A stretch of DNA of 64,000 nt from Trigonopsis variabilis (taxonomy: Eukaryota > Ascomycota > Trigonopsidomycetes > Trigonopsidales > Trigonopsidaceae). The position numbers and the translations under genes are program-made. Position 1 is the stretch's first letter. Every line of letters begins with the position of its first letter. Of this stretch, positions 5,799 through 64,000 are shown in pieces. The stretch is taken from NCBI GenBank assembly GCA_003707065.3, contig PPXM03000003.1, positions 992,001-1,056,000 of the forward strand. Reading direction: 5' to 3'. The notes below the pieces were generated by a model that saw only the letters and a list, made by a program, of their open reading frames with translations, searched no databases and was not told where the DNA came from.

Positions 5799-6207
5799 GC
5801 GAGCAGTGTCATGCGTGTCACATGAATGTAACACTGCTGCTACCCAAGGATGAACTCCTTCAAGACGGATTGATGCCTTTCGAAATAATGCCTCAGAGAA
5901 GAACTGATCGTCTACTATGCTATGCTCATATGTTGTATTTGAGGAGGGGGGTATCTGTCATATTATCGATAGTAGCTCGCTCGTTCCTTAGCCGCGACGA
6001 CCATGAGACATCTGTCTAAGACTTAACCTGAACACTACGATAGCGCTTTATACATAATCTCTATGAAACTAGTAGATCCTTTGTATAAGCTTATCTTGTA
6101 ATGCCACATCGAAATATTCTATTTATCTTGAGTTTAGAAACGTGTCATTTTACTCTGTTTCGTCTTAACTGAAAGCGTCACATTTCTCCCAACGACTTCC
6201 ACAGGGC
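5799..6207. other. Intergenic region RPS25 promoter / PRP18
   Basis: Divergent spacer. A 78-codon plus frame at 5783-6019 overlaps the RPS25 promoter boxes and has no recognisable features, so it is not called. Nothing else seen. Confidence 0.5.
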
Positions 6208-7191
6208 ATGGATTTATCTGGTCTTCTAGCCAAAGAAATCGCAAAAAAGAAAGAAGGGATTAAACAATTGGGAGATGGAAAATACTTGAAAAGATCAGAG
6301 GTCGAAAATCAGCGGAGAGCGGAATACCTTGCTGAGAAGGAACGAAATGAAAAGGAGAGACTTGAACGACGCGAAAAAGAGCTAAAAGAACGAAGAGCTG
6401 AAGAAGAACGTCGAGAGCAAGTGAAGAGGAAAGTTGAAGCAGAATATGAGGGCCGTAAGAGGCAGCGATTGAAGGAGGAGGAAGCTTTGAAGGAGCAAGT
6501 CCAAGATATCGATGACGAAGAACTGATGACACGACTCAGGAAAGCTGAAATTCCTTATAGGGTGTTTGGAGAAACAAAGCAAGATCGGATCAAGAGGCTG
6601 ATAAGGGCTGAGGAAGTTCTCTCGAAACTTGCCGCGGAAAAAGAAGAGGAGGATGAAGAGAAAAGAGTCGACATGAAAATTAATGAGACTGATATTAGAG
6701 ATATTGATAATATGACCCTTGTATATCGGCAAATGGCCAAATACAGCCGGTATCTGATCTGGAGATGGCAAAGCTTCTTGGATGAGAACAAGGACATGCA
6801 TGACGAGAAAGCGGAGGCAATTCTAGCAGAGGTTAAGTTACATATTCGGATGTTAATTGAAAGACTACGTGCCCGAGATCTTCCCACACCGATTTATATC
6901 AAACTGGCTTATATTTTTCTAGGACTCCAACGTCATGACTACCATCTTGCCAACGACACCTACATTCGTCTCAGCATCGGAAACGCAGCCTGGCCTATTG
7001 GTATTACTGCCGTGGGTATTCATGAGCGCAGTTCCCAAGACCGCATTACTGGACACGATAACGATCTCAGACAGGGTACTCTTGGTCGAGAGTCTGTAGA
7101 ACTGGCTCACGTCATGAATGATGATAAGACACGGAAGTGGCTTCAGGCAGTCAAAAGACTGATCACCTTTGCAGAGAAAAATGAGATCTAG
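6208..7191 (+). CDS. PRP18: Pre-mRNA splicing factor Prp18
   Basis: Second-step spliceosome factor that acts with Slu7 at 3' splice site docking. A single exon gives 327 aa. Residues about 10-95 form a highly charged Lys/Glu/Arg helix. Residues about 98-135 (DEELMTRLRKAEIPYRVFGE) form the PRP4/SFM-type motif. The Prp18 five-helix domain follows, with the nearly invariant conserved-region loop at IGNAAWPIGITAVGIHERSS, which contacts the 3' splice site in other species. It ends with MNDDKTRKWLQAVKRLITFA, as in other Prp18 proteins. The gene itself is intronless. Given the very short branch-to-AG spacing of introns throughout this window, the second-step machinery is of particular interest here. 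Confidence 0.95.
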   Translation: MDLSGLLAKEIAKKKEGIKQLGDGKYLKRSEVENQRRAEYLAEKERNEKERLERREKELKERRAEEERREQVKRKVEAEYEGRKRQRLKEEEALKEQVQDIDDEELMTRLRKAEIPYRVFGETKQDRIKRLIRAEEVLSKLAAEKEEEDEEKRVDMKINETDIRDIDNMTLVYRQMAKYSRYLIWRWQSFLDENKDMHDEKAEAILAEVKLHIRMLIERLRARDLPTPIYIKLAYIFLGLQRHDYHLANDTYIRLSIGNAAWPIGITAVGIHERSSQDRITGHDNDLRQGTLGRESVELAHVMNDDKTRKWLQAVKRLITFAEKNEI

Positions 7192-7773: not shown

Positions 7774-9633
7774 ATGATTATTCGGAGTGGATTAGGTCGA
7801 TATGCAATCACTGGATCTAGGTGGCCAAAGCAAGTGAAAGAGCCGGCCAAACGGACGTTTAAAGTATCCCAAGTGGGATATATTGGATCTAATTCAATAG
7901 CTGGATGGGATTCTTCTGAAGGAAAGGAAGCACGATGGAAAAAAATTCATAATGCAAAACCATTTTCCGCGTTCCTGTCCGATTCATTTGGAAGAGAACA
8001 TGATTATCTCCGCATCTCCCTAACGGAACGGTGCAATCTAAGATGTTTATACTGCATGCCTGAAGAAGGAGTTGAATTGTCGCCCAACGAGAAGCTATTG
8101 ACGACTGACGAGATTCTACGGCTTGCACGCCTATTTGTTGGTCAAGGAGTCAAGAAAATTAGACTGACAGGAGGCGAGCCAAGCATTAGAAAAGACATTA
8201 TTGAGATCATTCAGGAACTGGGTAAGATTGACGGGTTGAAAGATATTTGTATGACCAGCAATGGTATCAGTCTGTGGAGAAAATTACCTCAAATGAAGGA
8301 AGGTGGCCTTAATAAATTAAATCTCAGTCTAGATACACTTCAGGAAGGAAAATTTATTATTATGACTCGAAGAAAGGGTTTATCACAGGTCTTGAAATCC
8401 ATTGATACTGCTCTCTCGATCGGTATTGAAACTGTCAAATTGAATAATGTGGTAATGAGGAATTTTAACTACGACGAAGTACTGGATTTCGTGGAAATGA
8501 CGAAGGACTTGCCTCTGGAGATACGATTCATTGAATTCATGCCATTCGATGGAAACAAGTATAATCAAGATAAATTGGTGCCTTACAAGGAAATTTTGAA
8601 TCATATACGGTCACAGTACCCTTCATTGTCAAAGGATCTCGATGAATTTTCAGAAACTTCCAAGACATGGCATGTCCCGGGGTATAAGGGGAAAGTAGGG
8701 TTCATCACATCTATGTCGTCTCAGTTTTGTGGCTCGTGCTCTAGACTACGAATTACTAGTGATGGAAATCTTAAAGTTTGTTTGTTCGGCCCAAACGAAG
8801 TGTCTCTTCGAGATATGATGAGAAATAACGCTTCAGATGCCGATCTATTACAAGTAATTGGCACAGCAGTGGGAAACAAAAAGGAGAAACATGCCGGAAT
8901 AGAGGAACTAGTTCAAACGAAGAATCGGCCTATGATCTTAATTGGTGGGTCCGTGATTCTCAAAAAGATTTTCTAACGTTTAGGTGAAGAAGATGTCAGT
9001 GATGAGTATCTACGAGTTAATTCATTCTTTCGAAAGCATTCACCTGGAACACTATATGGGAAAAGGCGATTAAGCAGGCTCTTGCATTCTTTAAACCCGG
9101 AACTGAATGGTGCCTATGGCGCCCGATTGTTTTCAACTTTTGCAGTAAAGAAGGATGCTACATTTTCTCATGTTTCGCCTGATGGAGAAGCCAGAATGGT
9201 GGATGTTGGCGACAAAGACATCACACGGCGAACGGCTATCGCTGAATCATTTATCTACTTTTCAAACCCGCAGACTCTTGGCTTGATCAAAGAAAATCTG
9301 GTGAAGAAGGGTGACGTGTTAGGTACGGCCAGAATAGCCGGGATCATGGCTTGTAAAAAGACATCTGATTTGATTCCTTTATGTCACCCGCTGGCAATAA
9401 ATAAGGTTCAGGTGATCTTCCAGCTCATAGATGACAGTTCATGCATTCGAGTGGAATGTTTAACTCGATGTGACGGCAAGACCGGTATTGAGATGGAGGC
9501 GATCACCGGCGCCCTCATGGCAGCTGCAACGATCTATGATATGTGTAAAGCTGTTGATGATGGGATGAAAATATCCGATTGTCGATTGATTTACAAAACG
9601 GGAGGAAAAAAAGATGTTGACCGGCGAGACTAG
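7774..9633 (+). CDS. MOCS1: Molybdenum cofactor step-1 gene: MoaA (radical SAM) plus MoaC, MOCS1-type
   Basis: Makes cyclic pyranopterin monophosphate from GTP, in mitochondria in eukaryotes. Exon 1 is 7774-8944, the intron 8945-8983 and exon 2 8984-9633, giving a 606-aa fusion. MoaA part: radical-SAM cluster TERCNLRCLYCMPEEG (CxxxCxxC), LTGGEPSIRKD, and the C-terminal second cluster plus GTP site CGSCSRLRITSDGNLKVCLF. MoaC part: PLCHPLAINKV, KTGIEMEAITGALMAA and YDMCKAVDDGMKI, with the catalytic Lys. The Arg-rich N terminus (MIIRSGLGRYAITGSRWPK) looks like a mitochondrial presequence. ATG 7774 is the first in frame. Two donors exist for the single intron: GTGGGT at 8945 yields the fusion, and GTCCGT at 8949 yields MoaA ending in Ile-Gly-Gly then TGA. 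MoaA needs that terminal Gly-Gly, so donor choice probably decides which enzyme is made. Confidence 0.93.
8945..8983 (+). other. MOCS1 intron with two overlapping donors
   Basis: Acceptor CTAACGTTTAG ends at 8983. Donor A (GTGGGT, 8945) removes 39 nt, joins frame-correctly to MoaC and loses the second Gly. Donor B (GTCCGT, 8949) removes 35 nt, and the junction GG/GTGA creates Gly then a TGA stop. Retention extends MoaA past Gly-Gly by eight residues to a TAA at 8974-8976. A is closer to the consensus. The same choice exists in human MOCS1 (known), where only the form ending in Gly-Gly has active MoaA. Confidence 0.8.
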
Positions 9634-12549: not shown

Positions 12550-13348
12550 TACAGGGAATGATCTGGACGTTCAGGCTTAGGGTGAGTCACTCTTTGCGAT
12601 GGTGCAATCTAGCAAGCTACGTTACAGTTCTTGGAACTCCAAGTGAATACTGCTACATTCATGTACCGGAAAACATTCCGAGTTTATCCTTTCTTTCTAC
12701 GGATTCCTGGAAGGAATTTGATGAGATTTACGATTCCATGCGATTCTGCAAACCCCAGTCCGTCGACTGTGGGCCATCACCGAGGCAACATGACATAACC
12801 GCACAAGCGTTTGTGTTTTCAAAAAAAACTATATAAAGGACTCAGGCACATGAAAATTTCTTCATTCGAAGCAGAAGGTCAAAATCGTCTTATATGGCCC
12901 TTGCCTTTTACCAGAGCCATCAGGGTCTTGCCTTCAGATGCTTCTTGCCCCAGTTTTTGGAATCTTTTATTAGTCTTTGACTATTTTTGTCGAGCCTTAT
13001 TTCGACTTGTCTTTGATTGGTCTTGTGGGTCATGGGTCCCGTCAAAGATGTTTTGAAGTACGGTTCTAGTGTGACATGCAATGTAATTAATATTTAGATT
13101 AGTTTAATCTCTTTAATATATGTAGAATCACGATTTATTCACGAGAGGAGCTATGGAAATGAAGAACGTAATATTGAAGCTCCTTAAGAAGAGTGGCAAT
13201 GATCCAACGAGAGGTAAATCAACATATCGATCCTATGTCCTTTAGTGTAGGGGAAGTAACTATTATATTTATTGGGCTCAAGTAAGATAGATTGAATCAG
13301 CCACGTAACCCTAATGACCTCATCGCAATTGACTGATAATCCTCAATC
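12550..13348. other. Divergent intergenic region MET2 / hydrolase
   Basis: About 800 bases between divergent starts. Plus-strand frames at 12543-12836 and 12811-13056 overlap the MET2 5' end or lack any protein signature and are not called. A 31-codon frame near 13152 is too short to judge. No TATA-like element could be assigned with confidence. Confidence 0.5.
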
Positions 13349-19757: not shown

Positions 19758-21309
19758 TTATTCAGTCCGAGGCTTTTTCAAGGGGCTTCCGCCATCGTGC
19801 TCAGCAGAAACTGCCGCTTCGCTCTGCTCGGCAGAGACTGTGGTGGCCGAGTTAGGCCTCTTCAAGCTCGAATGAGGCACACTCTCTGAAAGATTATTGA
19901 GCTGGACAGGGAGGCCATGGGCATCACGAGAAGGAGTAACGGGTGCGGGAGATCGGGATGCAACTGGTAGGAGAGGAGGAGGAGGAGTGGGGCGAATATT
20001 AGAAAGAGGAGCCTGAGAGAGGATAACAGAAGGAGACTGTTGGCCATTAGAATGTATAGAAGGCATAGTCGGCGATGATGGTTGGGAAGGATGGATAGGA
20101 TGGGCCGAGGGAACAGAAGTCTGGGATAAGGAAGATTTAGGCGCAGGTTGTAAAGGAGTAAGAGGTTGTTGTAAACTAGAGTCCTCGCCTTTCCTTTTCC
20201 GGGCCTTGGAAGCAGTCGAGGTTGTAGAGGTCTTTTTCTTCTTCACTGCGGTAGGGGTGCTAGGAGAGGACGGGGTGGTCTGAGAAGTAGGTTCTTTAGT
20301 CGCTTTTCTATAATCTTCAGCTTCCTGAATGAAGACCGAAGGCAAGTATTTCCGCAGCCAGCCCAACGTTCCCAACGGATTACGAACGACAGGGCCTAGA
20401 CTCGTAGGAGTAGTAAAGAGGATATCTCTTGTAGATATAGCTCCAGTCAAGGAAGATTCACCATCCATGAGTTTATCGGATTTGTTTCCAGGGCCAATGG
20501 AAGCCGTATTAGGCACCGAAGTGACTGCCAGCGCGGGGAGACGAGATCCAGCATTGACAAGAATACCATTTTGATCGTAAAGGTAGGTAGCGTCTTTGAC
20601 TGCTCCATTTAAAGGGTCACGAGGATCCTTAAGACCTTGTTTTGGCTCTTCTTTAGCCAAGAGTCGCCTATAATCAAAGCCAAAGCCATGATAATCATTG
20701 TATCTATCCAGACCGAATGGTTCGATGTCATCATTGACATCGACCAGAGAAGAATACAAGTCTGGTACGTCCACTGAATCCATCGAGTCGAGATATTTTT
20801 TGTGAATCATTTCATCGGTTACCAAGTATTCATCTTGCTCAGCCAATTTCGGATCAAACCGAATTCTCGCCCGTTTATTCAACTTATCAGACGAATTTAA
20901 ATCACATAGTACGTCTAATAGATAACTGTTCTCCATGCTCAACCGACGAATCTTCATCCTTGCTTGGAGATCTTCTTGAAATAATTGCTCCGACAGTTGG
21001 AATGCACTGGAGAACTCAACCATCATCTTTTTATACTTTTTGCGATAACTTTTAAATGGTCCTCGTCTCGGACCTTTACTTTGATCCTCCTCTTTTCCGT
21101 TCTCCTCCTCGGCATCTAAAACTAGTCAGCTTTCCTTATCCATTGCTCTCGAGGTCATCTTACTCACCTTGCATAGTCACATCTTCTTGCTCTCCTTGCT
21201 CTCCTTGTTCCCCTTGCTCATCATGGTCTTCGGGCTCGCTTTTAATTTTAGACTCCTCTTCTCCTTGACTCGTTTCCTGACCTTCCACTTTCTCTTCACT
21301 AGGCTGCAT
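19758..21309 (-). CDS. INO80 complex subunit, Iec3-like
   Basis: Exon 1 is 21309-21168, the 52-nt intron 21116-21167 and exon 2 21115-19758, giving 499 aa. The first 60 residues are acidic with a GEQ triplet repeat. Splicing and in-frame extension restore the conserved block RRGPFKSYRKKYKKMMVEF, followed by a coiled helix (SEQLFQEDLQARMKIRRLSM, then ENSYLLDVLCDL). This matches the N-terminal domain I know from the fission yeast INO80 subunit Iec3 and its filamentous-fungal relatives. The C-terminal half is low-complexity Ser/Pro/Thr with basic patches KARKRKGE and LKKPRTE. The predicted role is in the INO80 remodeller. Family assignment is from pattern memory; the gene model is well supported by frame. 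Confidence 0.62.
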
Positions 21310-22077: not shown

Positions 22078-23343
22078 CTAGAGTAGCAAAGTAAAGAGCG
22101 AGAATACCAAGGCTAAACTGGGAAGAGGTTGAGGGTTGTGATTTGCATTCGATCTTCCCTGCCCAGCATCGGCACCACGACCACCAGGGATTGAAGCAGT
22201 AAAAGTCTCGAGCGCCCCTTCGCCAGCTTCGCTGTCTATACCGTCACTTACAGGGCGTCGATGACGGGGCTGCTCAGTGGAATGAATCATCGAGGCCGAG
22301 ATACAGTCATAGGAGAAGCCTTTAATGATTCGATTCCGCTGAAGCTCAGACAGGATATCACAGTCAAAGTCTCTATCAGTGTTGAAGTAGAAACCGCCCC
22401 TGATATCGGAGATTGCAGGCAAGTCTAGCTTGGAAATCGAGCCCTCTATTTCCACTGCACCTCCAATTCCACGAAGATGTTCCAGGTTGCCTGTTTCTTC
22501 CAGAGCGGTATTATTAGCTATGAGTAGACCGCCACCGATTTGGATTAGATTGGGAATTGAGATGTTTTTGAGGAACCGGTTGTCAACGATAGCAATAGTT
22601 CCAGAGACTTCCCTCAGCTCAGGAACATGGAGAGACTTGATATCACTGGCAATTAGACTGAACCCACCGCCTGCAACTTGGCGCAGCCGGGGCGCCGAGA
22701 ATTCGTCGACGCGGAGGACGATTCCGTTGGCGTCAACCAAATTGGGCACCTCAAGGGAGGAATGCTGTCCGTTAAAAGAGAATTCGAGGTTTTTGGTGGT
22801 ATTAGCCAAGATGGTGACTTGAGATAGATAATGGTTGTTATTGATATTAATTGATTCCATTTTCCCAACATGAGTCATCTGGCCGAGTCGGCTGAGCGCA
22901 GTATCTCCAATATGCACAGAATTGGCTTGTATGGGGTAATTCAAATCTGCAACCTCGAGGCGAGGTAGAGTCTGCCAATGAATGGAAGAAACCTGTCTGA
23001 GGGATGGGAATTCAATCCTAATCAGTGAGGTGAGGGCTGATAGGTCCAAGGTATTGCCTATCTGTTGTAATTTGGGAGCCCGGATTGCCTCGACCCGACT
23101 CATATTAGATATAACCAAATTACCCCCAAGAAAAGCTAGCCGACCTAAGTCGATTTCCAAGGTATCAATGTCGACACTAAGAGACCCATAAAGAGAACCG
23201 TTACAGAGGTTTGTCCAAGAAATCAACTCTTCTGGAGCTGATACGACGAGATTAGAGTAACAGCCTTCGTTAAGACGGGCGCTTTGAGCCAGACAGCCCA
23301 GTTTAGCGGTAGCAAAAAGAATTAGTAGGTATGAAGGTATCAT
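22078..23343 (-). CDS. ECM33/SPS2-family GPI-anchored cell wall protein (divergent paralogue)
   Basis: Single exon, 421 aa from ATG 23343; the frame extends upstream only through a GTG. The signal peptide IPSYLLILFATAKLGCLAQS starts at residue 2. The body is a receptor-L/LRR-like beta-solenoid: repeated units such as LGGNLVISNMSRVEAIRAPK, SSIHWQTLPRLEVADL, LIQIGGGLLIANNTALEE and GIGGAVEIEG, the same order of landmarks as in ECM33. Asn-glycosylation sequons are frequent. A conserved Cys pair near the end (DFDCDILSEL, then SYDCISAS) precedes a short linker and a hydrophobic tail SLALVFSLFTLLL, so a GPI anchor is expected. The Ser/Thr stalk is shorter than in the neighbouring paralogue. It faces ECM33 head to head across 1.5 kb. 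Confidence 0.88.
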   Translation of the reverse strand: MIPSYLLILFATAKLGCLAQSARLNEGCYSNLVVSAPEELISWTNLCNGSLYGSLSVDIDTLEIDLGRLAFLGGNLVISNMSRVEAIRAPKLQQIGNTLDLSALTSLIRIEFPSLRQVSSIHWQTLPRLEVADLNYPIQANSVHIGDTALSRLGQMTHVGKMESININNNHYLSQVTILANTTKNLEFSFNGQHSSLEVPNLVDANGIVLRVDEFSAPRLRQVAGGGFSLIASDIKSLHVPELREVSGTIAIVDNRFLKNISIPNLIQIGGGLLIANNTALEETGNLEHLRGIGGAVEIEGSISKLDLPAISDIRGGFYFNTDRDFDCDILSELQRNRIIKGFSYDCISASMIHSTEQPRHRRPVSDGIDSEAGEGALETFTASIPGGRGADAGQGRSNANHNPQPLPSLALVFSLFTLLL

Positions 23344-24887
23344 ATTTCTAGCAAAGAGCACTCGAAGTAAGCTGCCGTGTTATGCTAAGCAAGAGTTAGG
23401 TAGGTGGGAACAAAGCGGCATGCATACAGACAAGGCTCGAGCGACGGATTGTTTACCCTGACCGCCAAGGGGGATCACCATGGATACCAAGACCATTTGA
23501 TAGACTAAGAGAGTGGCCTAAAATTAGGACGAGAAGAACTATCTCCTGGGTTACTCGATAGTTTTAACATTACCTGTGGAATGCAAAGAGGCACAATGTG
23601 GGTGACTCGATCTGCCACGTGACCGACCAAAAATAGAAGTAGTGCGAAGCAGTACACTAACCAGCATTCCGATCTCTTTTTGGTATTGGATGTACTGGCT
23701 AGTACAATGATAATTCTTGGAGAAAAAACCTAGCTTCCGTTAGACCTTGAATCTGACGAGCTAATCAGGTGACACCAACGACTAGCTTCAGTGCCAAGGT
23801 GTGTATGTTCATATAAAGCTCTTGGTAGAGGGGGGAGGAATCGAGTCAACACATGTTGAATTCAATAAAATCATGCGAATATTAACATCATTAAGTCTGC
23901 GAAAGCTAGCTAACTGGCCTAAACCGAGAACATGTTCATTCAGTAACGGCTTTCCCGAGAACAACTCGGTAACGATATAGGAAGGCTACCTACCGCTGGT
24001 TCTTACAGTGGGGGAGCCAACCTAAGCGGGGTAGATGAGGATCAATTATTAAAGAGAGAAAGGCGTATCTACGAGCGTAAGTTGAATGAAAACGAGTAAC
24101 AAGGCAATCTGGTTCGATTGGTAATTTAAAATCACCTTTATTGTACCAGACGCAAGTCAGGCAGGTTGGGCGAGCCTGACGGCGCGTCCCCGAGCCCCAT
24201 CGCTGGTATCGCTGGTAGAGAGGGTTACACGTTCCGGCCTTGCGATGGAACCGCAAACAACTGACCCGAAGTTTTCCAATCACATCTGTAACATTGTCAC
24301 CATAAGGTAAAATGTCTAACATATCACTATAAGGCAAATGATGAGCTTTTTCCCTCCCAAGACGAAATGATATCTATAATTGGAAGTTTGCTTCCACAAA
24401 AGACAAAATTATTAGGGACAAAAAAGCAGTGTTTGTCTTCTACGTAATCATTTTATGGTGCAAACCGGAAAAGCACAATGGACAAGTGACACCCAACCAA
24501 ATAATCCGTCTGACTTGCTAGCCCTACCGTCCTAGTAATTGTTACATGTAGAGCCACCTCCTGGGAGACCTCATCGGCTGAGAGGGAAATACTCAGTTCT
24601 ATCGTACCTTGTACTGAAAACACAAGGTCAAGAGCCCACCTGTCGATCGGTCGGCTGAGCATATCAATTTCAATGTGATTGGCGATTAAATGAGCAGCCC
24701 TTGGTCTGTTACTCAAAAGGGTGAGGGCTGAGGACTGAAGACGGTTAATTCTGGCCCTACGTGCCAGATGGTTTCTGCCGGCTGACCTCTTCTTTCCTCC
24801 CTCCACCTTTACCTGTCCACTCGTGTTTATTGTTCTCTCATTGGTTTCTTCGCTTCTTTTTCAAAAAGTTAAAGGCATCTTCTATCA
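23344..24887. other. Shared divergent upstream region of two ECM33-family genes
   Basis: 1.54 kb between the two start codons. Minus-strand frames at 23990-24337 and 24453-24806 have no recognisable content. The 100 bases before ECM33 are rich in CTTT/TTCTC runs on the plus strand, as at strongly expressed fungal genes. No RNA gene seen. Confidence 0.5.
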
Positions 24888-27020
24888 ATGAAATTCTCAA
24901 TCGCTTCTATCCTCCCTCTTGTCGCCTTTGGTAGGTTTTTTCCCTTTGTTGTTTTTCTGTCCCTGGTGTCTTGAGTGCCGACTGTGCTCGCCCATCTGCG
25001 TGACCAACTTTATAATAGTTTTCTCGAGGCTATCCGATGATCCAAACATCGTTCCCCATTGATTTTTTTTAATTTTTCTATATTTTTGATTCTTTTACCT
25101 TGGTTTCGCCTGTCCACTTGTCCTATCTCCCATCGTGTCAAGGGGTTTATTTTTAGGTTTTCTTATCCTATCCTACTTCTTGTTTCTTGCCTATTTTTTG
25201 GGTGATTTTTATTGTCATTTGGCATATTTTAGTGGTCCGGAAAGCTCCGGTGAGCCTATCATTCGCTCTCTTCATCTTGACCAATATCCACTTGCTCGGG
25301 GTAAAGCCGGCAAGGTATTTTGGAATATTGTTTTCGCATCCGGCTTGATTGAATCCAACATCTTTCAAGCCTTCTTGTCTACTCCTTGTCCTTGTTTTTT
25401 TCTTTCCTGGCACGCGGCGGACGCGTCAAAAGTCGTCACGACAAGCCTCGCAGGTGGTGTGCTATCTTGCAGGACGTGCGGCTCGAGACATCAGAGGGCA
25501 GAATTGCAATCCATATTTGTTTCGATTATATGCTAACTCAGGATTATTCTATTTTTTACTTTTCCTTTTCTGTCTCATGAAAGATAGATTATGGCTCGCT
25601 TATGGTGCTGCTGGATCTTAAGGGAGCTCTGGTTGTACGAAACCCTTGTACGCCCCTCAACATGTGTCGATACGGGTCGATACGACGCAACCTTGCACTC
25701 TGCTGATCCAGAGATCGCACCACAAAGACAGAGACATTCTGTTTTGAGACAAAAGGGACTGTAAAAAATTAACTTTTTGGCATTATAGCTGCACATTCTA
25801 CTCTTGCTCAAGGTACATCTACCTCCACCGATCCTTGCAAAGCTACCAACACTGTCACCTCGCAATCTGATCTTGACGGGCTCTCATCATGTGGCACATT
25901 GAGCGGAGATCTGATTGTTGATTCCTCCTTTTCCGGCGTTGCTACTCTTAACGGAGTCAACAACATCACCGGTGACTTTACCGTTTTCAATGCAACCTCT
26001 CTGTCGTCGTTGGCTGCTCCCAGCTTGGGCTACATTGGTGGTGCTTTCAGCCTCAAGCAATTGACTGTTCTTTCGACGCTCTCCATGCCCGAACTCACTT
26101 CGGTTGGTTCGATCGAGTGGCAGACTCTCCCTGCTTTGGATGGTCTCCAGTTCAACTCCGGTGTCGACAAGGCTGATACGTTGACCATTTCTGATACTGC
26201 CTTGACGTCGTTGGATGGTATCACCTTGTTGAATGCTACTACTCTTGACATCAACAACAACCGGTACTTGGTCGATATTGCTTTTGATGTGACTTATGTG
26301 TCGGAGGCTCTCCAGATCAACTCCAATGGAAACGATCTCAATGTGTCCTTCCCTGATCTCGTGTGGGCCAACAACATGACCTTCCGAGATGCGGCCAGCA
26401 TCATGCTTCCACGACTCTACAAGGTCAATCAATCTCTTGGTTTTATCAACAACTCTCTTTCTGCAATTGACCTTCACAATCTCTCTACACTTGGTGAGTC
26501 ATTGACCATCGTCGCCAACGACCAACTCACCAAGGTCAACTTCTCTGGTCTTGAGTCTATTGGCGGGGGTCTTCAAATTGCCAACAACACCAAACTCGTC
26601 AACATCACCGGTTTCAACAACTTGACTTCGATCGGGGGTGCCGTCGACCTTGAGGGTGCCTTCAACTCCACCGACTTTGATAGTCTCAACACTGTCAAGG
26701 GCGGTGTGACCGTTGACACCACCGGTGACTACAACTGCAGCACCTGGGAAGACCTCAAGAACAATGGTGGTATCCAGGGTGATTCATACGTGTGCAGCGC
26801 TGCCACTGTTTCTACCTCTGCTTCTCTTGTTCCTTCAGCTACTACTGATGATGGTTCCTCAGCTACTGACTCTGCCGATGCCCAGACTACTTCTGATTCT
26901 GAAAGTTCAGCCTCTGCTTCTGCTTCCGCCACAAAGAAGAACGGCGGCTCTCGATCGTCTGAAATCGCTCTGCCCGTCCTCGGTGTCTGCGGTCTCATTG
27001 GTGCTGTCATGCTCTTTTAG
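24888..27020 (+). CDS. ECM33: ECM33-family GPI-anchored cell wall protein
   Basis: Wall-integrity glycoprotein anchored at the plasma membrane or wall. Exon 1 is 24888-24930, the intron 24931-25788 (858 nt) and exon 2 25789-27020; the product is 424 aa. The splice falls inside the signal peptide: MKFSIASILPLVAFAAHSTL then AQG. Next comes TDPCKATNTVTSQSDLDGLS, then the solenoid with VGSIEWQTLPALDGLQFNS, SLTIVANDQLTKVNF, IGGGLQIANNTKL and IGGAVDLEGAF. After the Cys pair (DYNCSTWEDL and SYVCSAA) come a Ser/Thr/Ala-rich stalk and a GPI signal with small residues KKNGGS before the hydrophobic tail LPVLGVCGLIGAVMLF. Codon use is strongly C-ending (AACAAC, ATCACC), unlike most neighbours, so it is probably highly expressed. 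Yeast ECM33 also carries its only intron at its 5' end. Confidence 0.95.
24931..25788 (+). other. Long 5' intron of ECM33
   Basis: 858 nt against about 38 nt for most introns here. GTAGGT donor, T-rich body, ATTATAG acceptor. Several overlapping frames inside (for example 25135-25536) look like chance in T-rich sequence. No clear box C/D or H/ACA snoRNA was found by eye, though a regulatory or snoRNA cargo remains possible. Confidence 0.75.
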
Positions 27021-43633: not shown

Positions 43634-45023
43634 ATGCTCAAGATCAAGCTCAAGGCTCCAAGTCCGCCAGAGGAAGCAGAAGAAAAGAAAGGGAGCAAGC
43701 GACGAAAGAATGAGGATAGAGCAGACGACGAGCCATCATCTGGAGGAGGACGAAGGAAGAGACGGCGGGAAGAGAAAGAGAGCTCGATACCGCGGGTGAA
43801 GATCAGTGCTCCTAAAGAAAAGCCGGAGCCACGGCTCAAGATTAGCATAGGGGGTAGTAAAACTGGAATGAACCTTCCAAGATTAAGTGTGAAAGCAGCC
43901 CGGGAGCCAGGACAAGGTTATGATTCTGAAGCTCCTGACCGAGAAGATGATCCATTGATAGAGGAAGGCTTGATTTTTCGAATGCAAGAGGGTCCTGATT
44001 TGGACTTTTTACGGAGGGCATGCGAGGAAGGAGATTTCAGCAAGGTTTGGTTCAAGTTCAAGGGTAAGTGGACCCTGAGGGAAGGCTAATAAACGTAGAT
44101 CAACGACGGGCGGTCATAAGTATCAATGGACATTTGTATGAAGCGAAACTGGTCGATTTACCGTGTATAATTGAAGCTCAAAAGTCATTTGATAGGAAGA
44201 ACCTCTACAAGACTGTGGATGTTTGTCAGGTTAGTAAAGATCGAGTACGATGGAAGCTGACCTGTTTGAGATGCTTTTAGTTACCAAGCCAATCAGCTCT
44301 GAGGATGAAGTCATGAACATGTCTGTCAAAGGGGAGGATTCGCTTTATCCTCATGGGATCACGCCTCCGTTATTCTATACAAGGAAGAGAAGGTTTAGAA
44401 AGCGGGTCTCTAATAAGGTGAGCAGAATGCGACAGCGAGAATCTAACTGGACAGACGATTGAATATGTCGAGGCTCAAGTCGATCGGCTGCTGGAGGCTG
44501 ATCTGGGAGCAGAAGAGTCCCTCTATGAACTTGTCGATCCCAACTTGCCCGTCAGAGAAGATTATCTGTCTTCGACCGAGCGGGACGGTACTCCATTCGA
44601 TATGCTGGGAGGACAGCTTAATTCTCAGCCGGTGGCTGAAAGCGAAGATGAAGACCTCTTGGAGGCTGAGCTTGAAAAAGCAATGGAAGGCCCTGAAGAA
44701 GAAGAAGAAGAAGACGAAGACGAGGAGGAGGAGGAGGAGGAAGAGATTTCTGATGACGACGAGGCAGGAAGTAAGTCAAGTTTCTTTCATGTTACGGCTA
44801 CTAACGCACAGATCGCCTACAAGTTTCTCGCCATAACGACCTTTTGCTTGAAGAAATTGGAGAATTGGAGACTACTATCAAGGCGAAAGAGCGAGATGCA
44901 ATGAGTACGACCAATCCCATTCTTCGAGGAAGGCTGATGGATGTGGTCAATAAATTGCGTCTGGAACTGGAAGCCAAACAAGCTCAAATTAAGGATGACG
45001 ACGATGCCGCAACCAAGGAATGA
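43634..45023 (+). CDS. TAF7: TFIID subunit Taf7
   Basis: TFIID subunit that binds Taf1 and restrains its activity. Five exons: 43634-44063, 44099-44229, 44271-44417, 44455-44770 and 44812-45023; introns 35, 41, 37 and 41 nt. The product is 411 aa. The start MLKIKLKAPSPPEE is the first in-frame ATG. The TAFII55 N domain reads EEGLIFRMQEGPDLDFLRRA, FKDQRRAVISINGHLYEAKL, VDLPCIIEAQKSFDRKNLYK and TVDVCQMLLVTKPISS, then HGITPPLFYTRKRRFRKRVS. An acidic tract of about 20 Glu/Asp lies at 44697-44762. The C-terminal helix (LLLEEIGELETTIKAKERDA) and the NPILRGRLMDVVNKLRLELE segment complete it. Every junction restores conserved Taf7 sequence. Confidence 0.95.
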
Positions 45024-61913: not shown

Positions 61914-64000
61914 ATGAAGAGTTCCCGTAAAAATACAAAACATTCGTTCTCTCAGTGGAATAACCGTCTGAAATCTATCTGGGATCAAGGTATAGCGGCA
62001 GGAAGGTGAAACAATAACACTAGATACCGCTGGCCAGGCCACAAGCTCCTGTTCATCGTCTTATCGAGCTACTGGAGGGCTTTCTTTGAAGAAATTGGCG
62101 GGGAATTTGCGCTCAAGGGCTATTGATGAGGATGCGATGAACGCAAAGGGTGATTATAAGCTCTACAAGTCTAAAAAGAGAGATAGATACAAACGGCGAA
62201 TACCAGATATGAACGCGTTTGATGGGGAAAATAATTTGATATCTAGTTATGGCCAGGAATATGAACATAATACCATATCGAAGGTTGGCTCAAAGATACT
62301 TACTGCTTTTAGGACCATGAAAGCTGCATTAAGGAGCAAGAGATTTCATCTCACATTGGATGATCCTGAAGAGTCAAAACTTCGTCCTTCATCAACCGAT
62401 TGCGCGTTAAATATGCCGAGTTTCTTGGAGATCTACCAGCCAGGAGATCAAGAAGAGGAAGTTGGTGATTCTTTTGATGACAACGATATCCCTGCGACCC
62501 CGTCTGTTAATTCAGACGTTGAACCCCATGATATCACCAGTCTATACCTGACTAATAAATTTAAGCACTGTAATGACTATGTATCTAAACGTGTGAAATA
62601 TAAACAAAATCTTCAACCTAATCGTCCATTGGGCTTATGGGATTTGGCCACATGGCAAAATGGGGAACCTAATCTCCACCTGGATTTATCACTTGAAAGA
62701 GCTTCAGGCGAGTCAAGAAAGGAGTTATGTACCTCTGAAGAAATGCGAGGGTGCGATGGATACAGTCTCGGCGATGTCCTCATGGACAGGGAGTTCTGCA
62801 TACTTTATGATTTATTGAAGCAGTCGATGAATCGAGGGGACTTTAGGGTTGGAAAAAAGTTAGGAGGAGGAGGATTCGGGAGCGTTGTAGCCGTAATGAG
62901 ACGAAAGGATCATAGGCCGCTTGCTTTGAAAGTTATAAACAGGCAACATGTTTCCGATATATCCCAGAAAGAGTCAATTGAAGCAGAAAAAGATATCCTG
63001 ATCCATCTGACTAACTCTAAGGCAAAATGGTCGGTAATCATGGACAGCTGGTGAGTGACCAGGCAATATGCTAGTTCCTGTGAGCTAATCACCAGGTTTC
63101 AGGATTCTACAAACTTGTACTTTGGAATATCGTTATTCTGCGGAGGGACCTTGATCGAATTGTCTCGATCATTGCATGCGAAGATGGCCATCACAGAGCC
63201 TCTTGTCCGGTATGCTGAGAAATGAAAAGAGCTCTAATATTGTAAGGTTTTATGCCATGGAGATGATTCTTGCAGTTGAGGAGCTCCATAACCTGGGTAA
63301 ATTGCACTGCGGTTCTTTGTCTGACTTGAAGGAATCATTCACAGAGATATCAAACCAGATAACTTTCTTATCGACTCCCTTGGACACATAAAGGTGACCG
63401 ATTTCGGCATTTCTTGCCGGGCAAATAAGAAGCGGCGGGGGAAACCCGAGTATCTCAGAGGCCGATGCGGGACTCCGGGTTACGAAAGTCCGGAAATAGT
63501 GTTCGGTTCTCCTTATGATGGAAGGACTGATTATTGGTCTCTGGGTATGGTTGTTTATGAACTATTCTATGACGTTAATCCGGTCATAGATTACCGGTTC
63601 CGAAAGGACAAAGACGAGGACAATGTGAATCAAGAAATTGAGGTTGGCACGAAGAAATTATGTGACGATCTTGTTCTTCCTGAACGTGACTATGATACCT
63701 TTGCGGCTAGGTCTTTTCTCTCAGGCATCCTTCGTCCTCAGCATGAGCGGCTGGGTGCTCGCGTTTATGTAGAAGCCAAGCGGGGAAAAAGAGTGTCTGC
63801 TCTAACAGCAAAGAATGACGCTGTGGATATAAAACGTCATGTGTGGTTTAGAGACGTCGACTGGAATAACCTGACCACCAAGATATCTCCGTTTATTCCT
63901 CTCCTGGACAAGCCTGATTGTATTGTGGACTATTTCCAAGAAGCATCAAACCTCGAGGAGCCTGGAGACGCTGCTGACCGTCTGTCCCATTGCGACGTCT
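61914..64000 (+). CDS. AGC-type serine/threonine protein kinase (3' end beyond window)
   Basis: Exons 61914-61989, 62024-63050, 63096-63209, 63247-63296 (50 nt) and 63332 to beyond 64000; introns 34, 45, 37 and 35 nt. About 310 residues of charged, mostly disordered N terminus precede the catalytic domain. Kinase motifs: glycine loop [17 protein letters not shown]-type [42 protein letters not shown] and [14 protein letters not shown], all key residues present. The AGC-like tail [14 protein letters not shown] then ISPFIP follows an unusually long insert of about 90 residues. The splice inside the catalytic loop (LHNLG/IIHRD) and the small exon were needed to recover HRD. The exact subfamily is not recognised; a YANK-like or fungal-specific AGC kinase is possible. 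The frame is open at the window end. Confidence 0.88.

Follow-up and report, generated by a model that had tools for sequence, protein, structure and literature searches.

Catalysis by MoaA requires that its C-terminal Gly-Gly be free, and the choice between an A form and an AB fusion of MoaA and MoaC is, as a principle, already known in animals and in Neurospora. In Neurospora crassa, non-spliced nit-7 RNA gives NIT-7A, in which the Gly-Gly is encoded by the start of the intron, and RNA spliced by removal of positions 1460–1696 gives the NIT-7AB fusion (PMC7232280). A further spliced variant (delta 1469–1696), formed from a second donor nine bases downstream with the same acceptor, is non-essential (PMC7232280). 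Both NIT-7 isoforms are needed in this fungus, and the non-spliced RNA increases under nitrate-inducing conditions (PMC7232280). Expression of NIT-7AB and NIT-7B without NIT-7A gave no wild-type-like growth; when NIT-7B was started from its own Met, it failed to reach the mitochondria, and its combination with NIT-7A did not bring back wild-type-like growth (PMC7232280). The same paper calls the Gly-Gly motif functionally relevant and names cnxABC of Aspergillus nidulans, which has both catalytic domains, as a nit-7 homologue.

The constructs in Table 1 of the Neurospora paper, namely NIT-7A (1–1467), NIT-7A-eGFP (1–1464), NIT-7AB (1–1459 joined to 1697–2664) and the mutation 1461T>C (PMC7232280), show that the GT of the nit-7 donor occupies the second and third bases of the first Gly codon (codon 487), so that the intron lies in phase 1. 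From the same construct numbers the second Gly codon was deduced to lie at 1462–1464 and the stop codon at 1465–1467.

Alternative splicing in exon 9 of human MOCS1 is described in a review as leading to either MOCS1A or the MOCS1AB fusion (PMC9607355), and the either/or choice that the initial annotation of the locus studied here had named for the human gene matches this description. For cattle MOCS1, a figure legend distinguishes two splice types (I and II) that involve a single intron at the A/B boundary (PMC3034695). According to the review, mammalian MOCS1AB has a targeting motif that is internal and precedes the MOCS1B part (PMC9607355). Alternative splicing at GYNNGY donors is reported for 0.58% of human coding GYNNGYs, and in mammals it is attributed mostly to noise and secondarily to regulation, often by way of message decay (PMC4267661). 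The molybdenum trait is reported from all Pezizomycotina examined and as absent from most yeasts (PMC6147048). No report of a donor-shift form of the A/AB switch was noticed among the papers listed by literature searches that covered few subscription papers, and this is weak evidence of novelty.

Gene Content and Domain Identity

The window, i.e., the whole 64,000-nucleotide stretch of Trigonopsis variabilis DNA that was analysed, contained a MoaA-MoaC gene divided by one short intron. Exon 1 (7774–8944, +; predicted start ATG 7774) encoded the MoaA (GTP 3',8-cyclase) domain and exon 2 (8984–9633, +) a linker and the MoaC domain. Pfam matches to Radical_SAM (1.5e-32) and Mob_synth_C (3.7e-38) were found 5' of the intron and a match to MoaC (1.5e-52; Pfam stretch 9196–9606) 3' of it. 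After splicing from a donor at 8945 the MoaC domain was in frame with MoaA and the frame was open to 9633.

All six Fe-S cysteines of the MoaA domain (Cys87/91/94 and Cys319/322/336) were invariant in an alignment with bacterial MoaA, and because all six are retained the domain should be an enzyme. A Foldseek search with the predicted MoaA model ranked MoaA structures first (2fb2, 1tv7), and the genes adjoining the MoaA-MoaC gene looked fungal (Pfam Fungal_trans, Pih1_fungal_CS). Judged by its sequence, the gene is a fungal MOCS1/nit-7-type gene, predicted to encode the enzymes for the first two steps of molybdenum cofactor synthesis.

The MoaA-MoaC gene was preceded by a gene for the splicing factor Prp18 (6169–7191, +; Pfam Prp18 9.5e-38) and followed, about 3.2 kb downstream, by a U5 spliceosomal RNA (12867–12982, +; Rfam 44 bits); the presence of both nearby is probably a coincidence. 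Elsewhere in the window, two divergent genes at 22078–23379 (-) and 25773–27020 (+) were alike by eye and looked like Ecm33-type cell-wall proteins. The plus-strand gene matched Pfam Recep_L_domain above the cut-off, with a match to Ecm33 below it, and the minus-strand gene had no Pfam match.

The C-Terminus of the MoaA Domain

A scan of genome contigs with the fusion protein yielded at least 588 confirmed loci, and those among the best 80 were bacterial only. These 80 served as a control for the C-terminus. All 80 MoaA frames ended in Gly-Gly followed by a stop (64 IGG, 12 TGG, 2 VGG, 1 MGG and 1 LGG), and in none of the 80 loci were MoaA and MoaC fused in one frame. The window protein was aligned with 53 of the 80 sequences. 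Its glycines G391 and G392 occupied two of the 27 invariant columns, the six Fe-S cysteines were among the rest, and M387, which precedes the Gly-Gly, was nearly invariant. Homology thus places the true MoaA C-terminus, as the initial annotation had assumed, at the Gly-Gly codons GGT GGG (8944–8949, +). As this Gly-Gly is the conserved MoaA end, the exon/intron boundary falls within the penultimate sense codon of MoaA.

Two further searches were made. A plasmid blastn search returned one short bacterial match, and a short peptide pattern scan of viral contigs found no fungal relatives.

Reading Outcomes at the Junction

The junction codons (8941–8952) were ATT GGT GGG TCC, and both donors began inside the Gly-Gly codons. 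The first donor, GTGGGT, opened a 39-nt intron (8945–8983, +), and the second, the candidate donor GTCCGT, opened a 35-nt alternative intron (8949–8983, +). The acceptor AG (8982–8983) and a branch-like CTAAC (8973–8977, +) were common to the two introns. With GT-N-N-GT and a single acceptor, the site is by sequence a GYNNGY tandem donor.

Joining 8944 to 8984 gave NRPMILIG-EEDVSDEYL and continued through MoaC to 9633, i.e., the MoaA-MoaC fusion, and this removal of the 39-nt A/B-boundary intron destroyed the Gly-Gly end. Joining 8948 to 8984 gave NRPMILIGG, with a TGA in exon 2 (8985–8987, +) as the next codon, and by reading frame donor 8949 can yield an isoform whose C-terminal Gly-Gly is free. 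Retention of the intron gave ILIGG-SVILKKIF-stop (C-terminus ILIGGSVILKKIF), which extends eight residues beyond Gly-Gly and uses the TAA (8974–8976) of the branch-like motif as its stop. The initial annotation had the letters and coordinates of both donors and of their shared acceptor right, and the two products it had proposed were both reproduced by translation. Its description of the junction as a two-way choice was incomplete, the third outcome, intron retention, having gone unmentioned.

Among the four readings examined, 8949 alone ended directly after Gly-Gly, and a free-Gly-Gly MoaA needs this donor because retention adds eight residues. A third GT, at 8953, gave IGGSV and then a shifted frame and was rejected as a donor. 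An intron from 8945 to a different acceptor (8945–9036) was also among the intron candidates listed in the window. Local RNA folding at the junction gave no special structure (z -0.97; 36 of 200 shuffles folded equally well), and RNA structure as the chooser between donors, being indistinguishable from shuffles, was set aside.

Comparison with Neurospora nit-7

The window gene and nit-7 each encode both domains in one gene, and in each the spliced form is the fusion. The intron lies at the same place and in the same phase, inside the first Gly codon (the nit-7 side of this comparison comes from construct coordinates), and a further donor site that shares the acceptor lies at +9 in nit-7 and, as a candidate, at +4 in the window gene. 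The intron is 237 nt long in nit-7 and 39 nt in the window gene. In nit-7 the stop codon lies inside the intron directly after Gly-Gly, whereas in the window gene it lies in exon 2 and is reached by way of 8949. In nit-7 either retention or use of the +9 donor leaves the Gly-Gly free, but retention does not do so in the window gene: translation of its retained intron did not give the Neurospora arrangement of Gly-Gly directly followed by a stop. Mammalian MOCS1 is similar in that splicing at the A/B boundary is described as choosing the A form or the AB fusion, but its exon structure differs from that of the window gene.

The initial annotation, which did not mention the fungal precedent, had offered common ancestry and independent origin as alternatives. 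The position and phase of the nit-7 intron lean towards the first of these, the switch having been kept at least within fungi.

The Neurospora precedent also raises the explanation that MoaA is made from transcripts that keep the intron, just as NIT-7A comes from non-spliced nit-7 RNA (PMC7232280), with donor 8949 unused and the eight-residue tail (IGG-SVILKKIF) tolerated or trimmed. The retained reading is indeed open through Gly-Gly and stops soon after. The tail would nevertheless bury a Gly-Gly at which 80 of 80 bacterial MoaA frames (the best 80 of at least 588 confirmed loci) end exactly, and the stop that follows Gly-Gly directly in Neurospora does not do so here, so this explanation is judged unlikely. 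AlphaFold models of the Gly-Gly form and the retained form, each run with 53 of the 80 bacterial sequences, had the same fold with a poorly predicted C-terminal tail (mean pLDDT of 52 for residues 391–392 of the Gly-Gly form and 50 for residues 391–400 of the retained form) and gave no support either way.

Tandem Donors among the Introns of the Window

Seventeen other introns of the window were hand-picked from two candidate lists, one donor-filtered and the other without a donor filter. The donor-filtered list leaves +4 free when +5 is G, and two of its entries that were not taken, at 44820 and 35597 on the minus strand, had G at +4. The unfiltered list comprised 19 acceptor groups: MOCS1, 11 groups that were used, and seven that were dropped (single open frame, or a better gene opposite), among which were three donors with G at +4 (56756, 22710 and 22677). 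For three of the 11 used groups the donor was chosen among several by consensus. Eight of the 17 introns were checked by eye for protein continuity (two in NAD kinase, one in COPZ, two in AAT and three in a kinase). One candidate, 63545–63589, was dropped because the unspliced reading gave a better kinase sequence.

The introns counted in the window were very short and uniform, and in many of them CTAAY or CTGAC stood a few bases upstream of the acceptor. Since the 17 introns were 33–46 nt long and one of them (63297–63331), the removal of which restored a kinase motif by eye, was also 35 nt, the length of the 8949 intron is no obstacle to its removal.

The letters of the tandem donors are as the initial annotation gave them, but it overlooked that the second GT (8949), being the +5/+6 of donor 8945, comes automatically with any GTNNGT donor, a type also found in 11 of the 17 other introns. 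The tandem GT by itself is not more than chance. The unusual points are three: the G at +4 of the first donor, the G+5 T+6 at the second site, and a shifted product that ends where the family ends.

The base at +4 was A in 14, T in two, C in one and G in none of the 17 other introns, and the first MOCS1 donor has G, the base that creates the second Gly codon. This G goes against the local preference, as if coding held the donor off consensus. The count of 0 of 17 carries selection because the introns were hand-picked and some untaken candidates have G; among the 11 introns used from the unfiltered list, G at +4 was likewise found in none. G at +3 occurred in 8 of the 17, and a stop after the shift had a frequency of 7.1–7.9% within the MoaA-MoaC coding sequence. 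A rough hand estimate from these values (G+3 8/17, G+4 <1/18, shifted stop 7.1–7.9%) put the joint chance at ~0.002. An early stop following a +4 shift is by itself not rare, as three of the 11 other GTNNGT introns had one within two codons; in those three it was formed by the four bases that the shift adds from the intron (GTGA or GTAA), and in MOCS1 it came from exon 2.

Site 8949 has G at +5 and T at +6, as did none of the 11 other +4 GT sites. It also has C at both +3 and +4, with a purine at +3 in all 17 others, a set that is partly donor-filtered. Predicted pairing with the U1 5' end was -5.0 kcal/mol for 8949 and -8.4 kcal/mol for 8945, and 8949 is thus the predicted weaker site, although it ranked second best of the 12 +4 sites. 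The gap of 3.4 kcal/mol between the MOCS1 donors was ordinary, the others spanning 2.3–8.3 kcal/mol with a smaller gap in 7 of 11. An INO80 Iec3-like gene (Pfam 3.1e-15 for Iec3) also had a tandem donor, GTGAGTAAGA (at 21167–21122, -), and its second site, GTAAGA, was close to consensus.

These counts bear on a further explanation, that only the fusion is made. Free MoaA would then be supplied by another gene, or MoaA would be active within the fusion although its Gly-Gly is not free, the Gly-Gly codons would be a relic, and the second GT would be a mere +5/+6. GTNNGT in 11 of 17 other introns, the weak second donor site and the mostly noisy character ascribed to mammalian GYNNGY splicing (PMC4267661) are consistent with it. 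In a relic, however, one would expect drift of the +4 base to A, as in 14 of the 17 introns, the MoaA catalytic residues are all retained, and in Neurospora growth with NIT-7AB and NIT-7B but no NIT-7A was not wild-type-like (PMC7232280). On balance the explanation is doubtful but deserves some weight.

The junction resembles GYNNGY sites as described in mammals in having two GT donors four bases apart, a frame shift and an early stop. It differs from the noise reported there in that the shifted product of the window gene would be an active enzyme. Were both spliced forms to occur with the 8949 product as noise, its message degraded and without a role, this would accord with the main cause named for mammalian GYNNGY alternative splicing (PMC4267661). 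Such an outcome is very improbable for a product that ends exactly at the conserved enzyme C-terminus and for a message in which exon 2 is open to 9633, with no later intron of the kind needed to mark the stop as premature.

Source of MoaC and the Linker

The first in-frame ATG of exon 2, at 9196, is the first residue of the Pfam MoaC stretch and is preceded by eight out-of-frame ATGs. For this reason MoaC is most likely produced as the fusion from donor 8945, in line with the fusion reading of the initial annotation, and its separate translation from 9196 on the message that stops at Gly-Gly is unlikely. A start at 9196 would keep the whole Pfam stretch and lose the presequence-like linker together with about 12 E. 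coli-matching residues, as the match to E. coli MoaC extends about 12 residues further upstream.

The linker contained a basic, amphipathic, presequence-like stretch, YGKRRLSRLLHSLNPELNGAYGARLFSTFAVKK (9055–9153, +), in which 18-mers had a net charge of +3 and a hydrophobic moment of 0.52–0.53; it may be where MoaC is released in mitochondria. ARLFSTFAVKK (9121–9153), located in the linker before MoaC, looks like the end of a mitochondrial presequence and is a possible point at which MoaC is cut from the fusion. Its R-x-F/S-T resembles a mitochondrial cleavage motif. By simple scores, basic amphipathic stretches were found at residues 9–33 and 415–434, and the presequence score is weak evidence because an internal MoaA helix (113–131) scores equally high.

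Proposed Switch and Its Meaning

The favoured reading, to which a probability of roughly 0.6 is assigned, is that the junction carries an inherited fungal A/AB switch in a new mechanical form. Splicing from 8945, expected to be the major event, would remove the second Gly and the stop of MoaA and make the MoaA-MoaC fusion. MoaC would derive from this fusion and would probably be released within the mitochondria, close to ARLFSTFAVKK. A smaller fraction of splicing events would slip four bases to 8949, where Gly-Gly would be restored and the TGA in exon 2 met, and the product would be MoaA with a free Gly-Gly, and active. The proposal draws on the gene content, the frames, an intron size within the local range, the Gly-Gly homology and the lack of a likely separate MoaC start, all of which were read from the sequence. 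The use of 8949, its role as the source of active MoaA and the cutting free of MoaC are what we infer.

A more specific version is held tentatively, at a little under even odds. The old fungal switch would have been rebuilt in a very short intron, with the stop in exon 2 and retention inactive, so that all active MoaA would arise through the four-base slip. Should that be so, what is usually splicing noise might be the sole source of an enzyme needed for the molybdenum cofactor, a consequence that is about as tentative.

For annotation, the locus carries a warning: a gene model with the 8945 donor alone predicts no MoaA with a free Gly-Gly. If the favoured reading is true, the gene would be a clear case of a GYNNGY slip giving a needed product and not noise, and the decision between free and fused MoaA would have persisted while its machinery changed, a four-base shift of the donor having replaced intron retention.
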